Positions 58,098 to 61,411 of a stretch of 64,000 bases of DNA are shown here, piece after piece. The translations under genes and the position numbers were made by a program. Origin of the DNA: Hymenobacter metallilatus (GTDB lineage: Bacteria; Bacteroidota; Bacteroidia; Cytophagales; Hymenobacteraceae); the NCBI RefSeq assembly GCF_003944705.1, contig NZ_RWIS01000003.1:62001-126000 (forward strand). Reading direction: 5' to 3'. The notes under the pieces are model-generated. The model worked only from the letters and a program-made list of their open reading frames with translations, had not been told where the DNA came from and made no database searches. The first letter of the stretch is position 1, and the number at the start of each line of letters is the position of its first letter.

Positions 58098-58185
58098 CGT
58101 AGAGACGCGACATTTCGCGTCTCTTCATTGAACGGTGCATGGATGGTCGTTCTGACGGGAGACGCGAAGTGTCGCGTCTCTACAG
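58098..58185. repeat. Two palindromic GTAGAGACGCGACAxxTCGCGTCTC units arranged as an inverted pair
   Basis: gtagagacgcgacatttcgcgtctcttc (58099-58126) and ggagacgcgaagtgtcgcgtctctacag (58158-58185). Confidence 0.85.
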
Positions 58186-58201
58186 CCATTCAACAACATA
58201 T

Positions 58202-58225
58202 AAATACTCGGCATACCGAGTATTT
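58202..58225. promoter_or_regulatory. Perfect 10-bp inverted repeat upstream of the DUF4442 gene
   Basis: aaatactcgg cata ccgagtattt; could be an operator or a weak terminator. Confidence 0.45.
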
Positions 58226-58259
58226 TCTGTTCCTTGCAGGAGCTCAACTTTCCCCCGCC

Positions 58260-58772
58260 ATGACCCCAACGCCCGCCGCCGTACCGGCCGATGCCGCCCG
58301 CCTGGAGAAATTCCGCCGCGCCATCAGCAATCCGCTCAAGCTGAAGCTGTTTATGCTGCGCCGCCTGCCCATGGCCTACCTGGCCGGCCTGCGCATTGCC
58401 GAGCTGACGACGGAGCGCGCCACCGTCACGGTGCCGTACAAGTACCTGACACAAAACCCGTTTCGCAGCATCTATTTCGCCTGCCTGAGCATGGCCGCCG
58501 AAATGGCCAGCGGCCTGCTGAGCATGATGCACGTACAGGCCGGCCCGCCGGTATCCATGCTGGTGGTAGGGCTGGAAGCAGATTTCAGCAAGAAAGCCAC
58601 GGGCCTCATCCGCTTCAGCAGCCACGATGGGTCCGCCATTGCCCAGGCCATTGCTGAAAGCCGCGCCACCGGCGAAGGCCGTACGGTAACGGCTACCAGC
58701 GTGGGCGTGGATGCCGCCGGCGACACCGTGGCCACGTTCCGCATCACCTGGTCGTTCCGGGCGAAGCGGTGA
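58260..58772 (+). CDS. DUF4442 (hotdog thioesterase-like) protein
   Basis: LKLKLFMLRRLPMAYLAGLRIAELTTERATVTVPYKYLTQNPFRSIYFACLSMAAEMASGLL. ATG at 58260 preferred because the ORF-track start lies in the upstream repeat. Confidence 0.85.
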   Translation: MTPTPAAVPADAARLEKFRRAISNPLKLKLFMLRRLPMAYLAGLRIAELTTERATVTVPYKYLTQNPFRSIYFACLSMAAEMASGLLSMMHVQAGPPVSMLVVGLEADFSKKATGLIRFSSHDGSAIAQAIAESRATGEGRTVTATSVGVDAAGDTVATFRITWSFRAKR

Positions 58773-58945: not shown

Positions 58946-60505
58946 TTACTCCTCCCGTAGGCTTTCCTTCGTAATAACGTCCACCAGCCCATCCTCACTG
59001 ACGACGATGGCCAGGCAGGGGTAGGGCGAGCTTTCAACGTAGCGGATGGCGGAGTTGTAGCGGGCTCCCCGGGTACTGGTGCCGTGGCCGCTGGCCTTCC
59101 CATCCAGAATAACCCCAATAGAGTAGCAGTAGCTTTCGGGGTCGAGGAGGACAGCGCCATCAATGGCCGTAACGAGACGGGTGATAAGCGGGGTGAGCGG
59201 CACGGGCTCAATAAGCGTGCATTGGAGCTTGAGGCGGTCGGCTTCTGCCAGAGCTTCGGTAGTAATTACCAGCAGGGTGCCGTGCTTCTGGCGGCTGGCT
59301 TCCACTACCACGTCCCAGAGGCGCTCCACCTTGGCGTTATCGGTGAGGTGGAAGGTGGTTTTCAGGTCGCGGCGGAACCGGGCGCGGTTGAGGCGGGTGC
59401 GGGGCAGGCTGGGCTGGCCGTAGTGGGCGCGCATGAGCACCTGCCCGCCGTGCTGGAACTCCCAGGCGTAGTGCGTCACAAAGTTGATGACAAACAGATC
59501 CTCCCGAGAAACATCGTACTGGCCCACCTGCCGGCCTAGGGCGTATACGTTTTCACCGTCGGCCAGCAGGCTCACATCCTGGGTGGTCATTTCCAGGAGC
59601 TTGCGTACGGCCCGGTAATCGGTGAGCGGCGTAGGGCAGGTGAGGGCAAATACTTCGGAGAGGTTGGGGTGGCCCCGCCGGGCCAGCAGCAGCTTGCCGA
59701 TGCCCTCGGCCCCCTCGTAGCGCAGGGAGGAAATGGTGTTGCAGGTGGCAAACAGCTTGGCCGTGGCCGGATTCATACCCAGGTCCTGGGCGGGTGTATC
59801 CATAAACAGCTTGCCGGCCGAGCGAATAATTTCGTCGGTTTCGCGGGGGCGCACCAGCAGGCCCGAGCCCGGTTCCGGCTCGGTAAGGGACTTGTAGCAC
59901 TCTTCGTGAAAACGCAGAATAGCCGACATCAGCAGGGAATAGGACAGAAAGCGTCCGTCGGTGTAGTAGCGGTTTTTCTGGAGGGTAGGGTGAGCCTGCG
60001 CCGGTTTGCGGTTCAGGCGCAGCACGGCCATTACAAAGTGCTGCTGCACCCGTACGGCCGGCCCGGCAAAATGCAGGTACTTACCCGTGGGCAGGTCGTC
60101 GAATATTTCCTGCACGGCCCGCCGTAAGCCCAATGCTGTTTGCTTGCGCTGAATCATGTCCTCGCTCATAAACTCGGCATCCGGCGACGACCAGGGCTGC
60201 AGCAGCTGGTAGTAGCGGCCCCGCGCCCGGGCTTCCCCGAAGGCGTGGGCATCGAGGCCACAGTCGGCGGGTTCCAGGCACACGGTTGCCGCCTCCGGCT
60301 CGTCGGCCTCGTCGGCGGGCAACGCCAGCAGCAGCACATAGGGGTCGAGGTCCTCATCCAGTGCCTCAAATACCCCGTTGGCAATTAGTTGAGCGGCTTG
60401 CCGGAACCGCGCCTGGTAAGGCCAGATGGAAAAGCTATCCGGCAACGGCAGGGGAGTGCCGAAGGCAACGGGAGGAGCAGCAAGCAAAGGGAGAGGAGAC
60501 AGCAT
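58946..60505 (-). CDS. Protein with C-terminal DisA_N/DAC-like (diadenylate cyclase-like) domain
   Basis: C-terminal TAIDGAVLLDPESYCYSIGVILDGKASGHGTSTRGARYNSAIRYVESSPYPCLAIVVSEDGLVDVI resembles the DGA...GTRHRAA...VVSEE.G core of DAC domains. The long N-terminal region was not recognised. Confidence 0.75.
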   Translation of the reverse strand: MLSPLPLLAAPPVAFGTPLPLPDSFSIWPYQARFRQAAQLIANGVFEALDEDLDPYVLLLALPADEADEPEAATVCLEPADCGLDAHAFGEARARGRYYQLLQPWSSPDAEFMSEDMIQRKQTALGLRRAVQEIFDDLPTGKYLHFAGPAVRVQQHFVMAVLRLNRKPAQAHPTLQKNRYYTDGRFLSYSLLMSAILRFHEECYKSLTEPEPGSGLLVRPRETDEIIRSAGKLFMDTPAQDLGMNPATAKLFATCNTISSLRYEGAEGIGKLLLARRGHPNLSEVFALTCPTPLTDYRAVRKLLEMTTQDVSLLADGENVYALGRQVGQYDVSREDLFVINFVTHYAWEFQHGGQVLMRAHYGQPSLPRTRLNRARFRRDLKTTFHLTDNAKVERLWDVVVEASRQKHGTLLVITTEALAEADRLKLQCTLIEPVPLTPLITRLVTAIDGAVLLDPESYCYSIGVILDGKASGHGTSTRGARYNSAIRYVESSPYPCLAIVVSEDGLVDVITKESLREE

Positions 60506-60619: not shown

Positions 60620-61411
60620 CTACAGCGTGAATACAACAGGTAACACCATCTTTTGCTTCATGGGCTGGCCCTGATAAGTAGCGGGCTGCCATTTGGGGGC
60701 CGCTTTAATCAGGCGAATGGCCTCCTCATCCAGGCCGGAGCCCAGGCGTTTCACCGGCTTAATATCCGTGAGGCTGCCATCTTTCTGCACCACAAATTCC
60801 ATCATCACCCGGCCCTGAATCTTTTTCTGGCGGGCCAGGGCGGGGTATTGCTGGTTTTGCTGAATCCACTCGAAAAAAGCGTCGGTGCCACCTACCGGGC
60901 GGGCGGGCTGGTCGGGTTTTACCAGCTGGGTGGTGGGGCTGGCGGCCGTGCCGCCCGCCGGTACGGCCGGGGCACTGGCGCCGGTTTCGGCCGGAATTTC
61001 AAACGTGATGGGCACCGACACCCGCTGCCGTACCACGCCGCCCCGGTGCTGGGCGGGCGTCCAGCGCGGGCCGCCCTTAATCAGCCGAATAGCTTCAGCA
61101 TCCAGCTCCGGGTGAATGGGTTGGGCCACGGCCACGCTGGAAATAGAGCCGGTTTTTTCCACGACAAACGTGACGGTAACCGTGCCCTGGGCCCCGGCCT
61201 GCAGCGCCGCCGTGGGATAATGCTGGTTATCGGCCAGGTATTGGGCGTAGGCTTCCACGCCCCCTGCCGGTACGGCGGGCTTCTCCACGGCCTCGTAAAT
61301 TTCGGAGGCGGCAGGAGCCTTGGGGTACTTCAGCTTCTGAGCTGCTGCCGGAGCCAGAGCGGCGGTGCCAAGTGCAGCAGTGAGGAGCAAGGAGCGGAAT
61401 GCGTGTTTCAT
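60620..61411 (-). CDS. Exported protein with two tandem TonB C-terminal-like domains
   Basis: Signal MKHAFRSLLLTAALGTAALAPAAAQ; YPTAALQAGAQGTVTVTFVVEKTGSISSVAVAQPIHPELDAEAIRLIKGGPRWTPAQHRG and YPALARQKKIQGRVMMEFVVQKDGSLTDIKPVKRLGSGLDEEAIRLIKAAPKWQPATYQG. Confidence 0.9.
   Translation of the reverse strand: MKHAFRSLLLTAALGTAALAPAAAQKLKYPKAPAASEIYEAVEKPAVPAGGVEAYAQYLADNQHYPTAALQAGAQGTVTVTFVVEKTGSISSVAVAQPIHPELDAEAIRLIKGGPRWTPAQHRGGVVRQRVSVPITFEIPAETGASAPAVPAGGTAASPTTQLVKPDQPARPVGGTDAFFEWIQQNQQYPALARQKKIQGRVMMEFVVQKDGSLTDIKPVKRLGSGLDEEAIRLIKAAPKWQPATYQGQPMKQKMVLPVVFTL

Follow-up and report, generated by a model that had tools for sequence, protein, structure and literature searches.

What does a diadenylate cyclase (DAC)-like gene with an altered RHR motif encode, and what might it do in Hymenobacter metallilatus? 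The gene lies on the minus strand at 58946..60505 of the window, the whole stretch of 64,000 nucleotides that we analysed, and encodes a protein of 519 amino acids with its ATG at 60505. We refer to this gene as copy A, and to its paralogue in the same genome as copy B. The initial annotation described copy A as a candidate divergent member of the DAC superfamily and quoted three motifs, AIDGAVLLDPE, HGTSTRGARYNSAIRY and LAIVVSEDGLVDVI, all of which are present letter for letter in the ORF.

Copy A is composed of three domains that are recognised by Pfam. The C-terminal DAC domain (residues 402-513, 58967..59302; PF02457, E = 5.4e-10) scores 39.3 bits, which passes the curated cut-off of 27. 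The N-terminal region of about 400 residues, which had been called unrecognised, is in fact made up of a DACNG domain (residues 27-235, 59801..60427; PF21752, E = 5.7e-61, 206.5 bits) and a DACNH domain (residues 250-352, 59450..59758; PF21750, E = 4.2e-30, 104.2 bits), both of which pass their cut-offs of 27 and both of which are probable sensors. The sole NCBIfam match is DS2_3_antiphage (NF053872), an equivalog model with a curated cut-off of 630 bits; copy A reaches 434 bits, and spans positions 4-487 of the 576 in the model, such that the C-terminal 90 positions are missing. Judged by its sequence, copy A adds one more protein to a known family, and its three-domain architecture is already known.

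The predicted structure agrees with this assignment. The AlphaFold model of the whole protein, built from 54 homologues, has a pLDDT of 85.9 and a pTM of 0.77, and the top 50 PDB matches to it are all DAC enzymes (DisA, CdaA, CdaM and DacM) with probability 1.00 and TM-scores of up to 0.67 by target length. Comparison with the DAC fold had been named at the outset as the test of superfamily membership, and the claim survives it, since the model matches DAC structures. Sequence searches of the PDB with the full protein, the DAC domain alone and a family profile gave zero direct matches, and a search of a viral fold library gave nothing for copy A. When the N-terminal half was modelled separately (pLDDT 90, pTM 0.89), Foldseek found no PDB match below an E value of 0.18; on the basis of this model, the DACNG-DACNH half may represent an unsolved fold.

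The change in the RHR motif is most easily seen when copy A is aligned with the genome's own CdaA. In this hhalign alignment, which is weak (E = 0.019), the DGA, RHR and SEE positions are all in register, with GARYNSA over GLRHRAA (RHR to RYN) and SED over SEE. By this register, the motif residues of copy A are predicted to occupy the canonical catalytic positions. Copy A retains the DGA of canonical DACs (residues 449-451, 59153..59161), carries RGARYN (residues 479-484, 59054..59071) with RYN at the position of the canonical RHR, and has SED (residues 503-505, 58991..58999) in place of SEE. There is also an additional arginine, R479, which is conserved and precedes R482, the first RHR arginine, by three residues. 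D449 and G450 are invariant across copy A, copy B and the plasmid/CBASS set, and an alignment of 20 copy A, 15 copy B and 5 plasmid relatives gives the full list of invariant residues as D449, G450, R479, G480, R482, N484, R488, Y489, S503 and D505 (copy A numbering). The pattern RG-x-R-x-N-xxx-RY is present in 86 of 87 homologues, and the E. coli DS-2 DAC carries SRGSRYNSGVRY together with SDD. The altered motif that drew attention to this gene is thus real, both in the change from RHR to RYN and in that from SEE to SED, but it is not peculiar to copy A; by sequence comparison, RYN typifies a subfamily that has already been described and to which the DS-2 cyclase, the subject of experimental tests, belongs. 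In the DS-2 system, which consists of a patatin, a CD-NTase and a DAC, mutation of two predicted catalytic DAC residues abolishes anti-phage defence (PMC13092281). That a DAC needed for function carries this signature argues for activity.

Copies A and B are found throughout the genus. A match to copy A was accompanied by at least one further match in 101 of 101 sampled Hymenobacter genomes. There are three DAC genes in the window's genome: the canonical CdaA, which adjoins a folP-like gene and is separate from the other two, and copies A and B, which are 38% identical. Among the cases seen, copy A is not full-length only in G010, where it is split over two frames, and in G061, where it meets the edge of a contig; a few genomes of the genus have a broken copy B (e.g. 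G005, G065 and G088). A survey of the family found at least two copies in all 116 listed Hymenobacter genomes and in the 9 of a second genus that were listed, one copy in two genomes of a third genus and no copy in 74 genomes, with three other genera among those listed having no match. Outside Hymenobacter, we obtained matches in 0 of 222 genomes of the order and in 0 of 392 genomes of a phylum sample (Bacteroidota). The dN/dS values are 0.05-0.13 for copy A and 0.07-0.12 for copy B, indicative of strong purifying selection, and the two copies form separate clades that are each fully supported in the tree, which favours no particular branching between them.

The genomic address of each copy is also conserved. 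As noted in the initial annotation, and in agreement with Pfam, the neighbours of copy A are a gene for a tandem TonB_C protein (60620..61411, minus strand, two Pfam TonB_C domains), which is co-directional and 114 bp upstream, and a convergent DUF4442 gene (58128..58772, plus strand). In all 19 loci read in the genus, copy A directly follows a tandem TonB_C gene of the same orientation, and DUF4442 is nearby in 18 of the 19; by position, the TonB_C protein gene is a conserved partner of copy A. A consensus scan for a promoter or terminator between the TonB_C gene and copy A performed no better than it did on shuffled sequences. We also noted a gene for a bestrophin-family channel no more than ~7 kb from copy A in 18 of 19 loci; here it is ~5.9 kb upstream, beyond the end of the window (L039:15132-16145). 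Copy B (in the region L038:8861-13372, contig C29 of genome G000) follows a gene for an HI0933-like flavoprotein in 15 of 15 loci, with extra sequence between the two in a few, and a Na+/H+ exchanger gene lies beyond the HI0933-like gene in 14 of 15. Since c-di-AMP has a known role in ion balance, the ion-transport gene near copy B is suggestive. The TonB_C and DUF4442 genes accompany copy A in the second genus too, and the HI0933-like and exchanger genes accompany copy B there.

Several trivial explanations of the locus can be set aside. A chance ORF is ruled out by the orthologues in 101 of 101 genomes and the dN/dS of 0.05-0.13, a pseudogene by the dN/dS and the intact frames, and a recent mobile acquisition in this strain by the presence in 101 of 101 genomes and the fixed neighbours.

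Searches for a link between these genes and CBASS in Hymenobacter were negative. The earlier statement that no known effector sits beside copy A holds over a wider region, with no CD-NTase or CBASS effector within ~10 kb on either side at 19 orthologous loci. CD-NTases are absent from the 19 copy A loci and the 15 copy B loci, and the window's genome yielded no SMODS domain. SMODS-type CD-NTases do occur in 21 of the 101 genus genomes, never near copy A or B. Pfam scans of the neighbours, the search for SMODS and tblastn queries with three CD-NTases revealed no hidden CBASS near copy A. PADLOC gave no match on copy A, and phage records held no match to its protein; viral contigs held three distant homologues. 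Among the papers available to our search, none dealt with c-di-AMP in Hymenobacter. Because copies A and B are present throughout the genus, have fixed neighbours and low dN/dS, and have no CD-NTase near them, we conclude that in Hymenobacter they are core genes, vertically kept and unlinked from CBASS.

Relatives of copy A in other organisms occur both with and without CBASS. Homologues adjoin CD-NTases on plasmids of Citrobacter, Gluconobacter and Priestia, in E. coli, Winogradskyella and two Allomuricauda, and on a viral contig; in many other homologues (Pedobacter, Siphonobacter, Methanosarcinaceae, Anabaena), no CD-NTase was recognised in the stretch read. Since the DACNG-DACs of Pedobacter and a Sphingobacteriales MAG (L142-L148, L156) and those of Siphonobacter (L151, L152, L154) stand alone with their own conserved non-CBASS neighbours, these groups suggest that CBASS-free settling of DACNG-DACs happened more than once. 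DACNG-DACNH-DAC genes are also present in archaeal MAGs (Methanoperedens and Methanosarcinaceae; L164, L175, L182). Most homologues outside Hymenobacter are ~580-617 amino acids long, with ~85-90 extra C-terminal residues past the DAC domain, which are lacking in Hymenobacter copies A and B, Dyadobacter (492 amino acids) and Priestia (506 amino acids). In E. coli NZ_CM151382.1 (L210:3069-11746), the DS-2 operon adjoins a second CBASS operon (phospholipase, DncV, E2 and Cap3). In Spirosoma sp. 48-14 (NZ_MKUD01000011.1, L155:3598-6429), a TIR-STING gene (PF10137, E = 1.2e-25; PF20300, E = 4.7e-19) immediately precedes a DACNG-DACNH-DAC gene on the same strand, and the two sit beside a convergent patatin/CD-NTase/E1-E2/JAB-like CBASS; it is possible that the Spirosoma DAC and TIR-STING form a pair. 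Bacterial STING of the class found in Spirosoma is reported to sense c-di-GMP (PMC8748872).

Three known systems come closest to copy A. It shares with the E. coli DS-2 DAC (DS2_3_antiphage, NF053872; identified with DefensePredictor, PMC13092281) the three-domain order and the motifs DG[A/T], RG[A/S]RYNS and S[E/D]D, but it falls below the model's cut-off (434 versus 630 bits), lacks the 90 C-terminal model positions and has neither a patatin nor a CD-NTase partner. Moreover, copy A is a chromosomal core gene, whereas the DS-2 homologue is a rare defence gene, with 18 carriers among 5426 E. coli genomes. With CdaA, DisA and CdaM, copy A has in common the DAC fold, the DGA, an arginine at the first RHR position and the S-E-acid motif; it differs from them in having RYN for RHR and the extra R479, and in the weak sequence similarity (the hhalign E value of 0.019 given above). 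The regions outside the catalytic domain differ as well, with DACNG-DACNH ahead of the DAC domain in copy A, transmembrane helices in that position in CdaA and a DNA-binding C-terminus in DisA. Finally, some CBASS loci, which are defined by a CD-NTase and an effector, have relatives of copy A as accessory members, but no CD-NTase, effector or Cap gene is present at any Hymenobacter locus read.

We consider it probable, though well short of certain, that copy A is a catalytically competent, stand-alone DACNG-DACNH-DAC cyclase of the DS-2_3-like type that acts as a core signalling gene. An active cyclase is favoured by the DAC fold, by the invariant or nearly invariant motifs common to copies A and B, the CBASS-linked relatives and DS-2, and by purifying selection; against it is the replacement of two of the three RHR residues. 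DACNG and DACNH would most likely sense a cue and control the DAC domain at the C-terminus; the DAC domain would join two nucleotides to yield a cyclic dinucleotide; the substrate is probably ATP, and the product probably c-di-AMP or a close relative. Copies A and B, no longer tied to a CBASS operon, would then provide core chromosomal signalling beside the ordinary CdaA, with the receptor presumably encoded elsewhere in the genome. We identified no receptor or effector for copy A, and found no measured product in the literature for any DACNG-type DAC.

An unlikely but credible alternative is that copy A is a phage-defence protein, that is, a DS-2-like cyclase kept as a core defence gene, with its effector elsewhere in the genome. 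Its nearest characterised relative is indeed E. coli DS-2, and relatives adjoin CD-NTases in several genera and TIR-STING in Spirosoma. Defence genes are usually patchy in distribution, however, and copy A has a constant location and is present throughout the genus; it has no CD-NTase or known effector nearby, is negative by PADLOC and does not reach the DS2_3 cut-off.

If copy A is an active cyclase, as we favour, its product might be something other than c-di-AMP, such as a mixed or non-adenine cyclic dinucleotide, with RYN acting as a specificity switch; we regard this sub-case as doubtful. It would fit with the RYN change being subfamily-wide and with the genome already having a canonical CdaA. 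The RHR of canonical DACs touches the phosphates, not the base, and its loss therefore need not alter base choice. The Spirosoma neighbour, a STING of the class for which c-di-GMP sensing is reported (PMC8748872), points in the direction of another product, but this pairing was met once, with a CBASS close by.

Less likely again is that copy A is catalytically silent, a nucleotide-binding sensor whose DAC fold binds its ligand and whose RYN motif cannot cyclise it. In Mycobacterium tuberculosis DacA, changing RHR to AAA abolishes both ATP binding and activity (PMC3328451), and copy A has lost the histidine and the second arginine of this motif. Yet the catalytic-type residues D449, G450, R479, R482, N484 and D505 are invariant, R479 could stand in for the lost arginine, and the DS-2 DAC, which needs its predicted catalytic residues for defence, has the same motif.

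Canonical DACs work as face-to-face dimers or higher oligomers. The idea that DACNH is a degenerate second DAC domain, forming an internal pseudo-dimer in which only one site works, was prompted by a secondary-structure order and an EGxE / RK pattern that resemble the second half of a DAC domain, but is highly improbable and largely refuted, as hhalign of DACNH against the DAC region gave E = 0.22 over 6 columns, and the confident model of the N-terminal half had neither a DAC nor any other convincing PDB match.

What looks new here is the genus-wide, two-copy, CBASS-free state in Hymenobacter rather than the protein itself. To our knowledge, the only sources on DACNG/DACNH-type cyclases are bioinformatics and a single test of defence. 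Their physiology is difficult to investigate because the genes are scarce and frequently associated with mobile elements. In Hymenobacter, both chromosomal copies are conserved and neither is attached to a CBASS operon, and thus the product, trigger and receptor become directly accessible to study. We offer as a speculative reading, with the odds against it, that the shared ancestor of Hymenobacter and the genera closest to it acquired an immune-type cyclase, which was fixed as two CBASS-free core paralogues and now runs a second-messenger circuit of its own, with a distinct product owing to a choice of nucleotide altered by RYN, beside the c-di-AMP of CdaA. If this is true, it would mean that a signalling enzyme of phage defence has been domesticated for everyday physiology in bacteria. 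If the product of the family differs from c-di-AMP, another second messenger would be added to those of bacteria; should the product be c-di-AMP, these genera would run three cyclases for one messenger, which would itself need an explanation.
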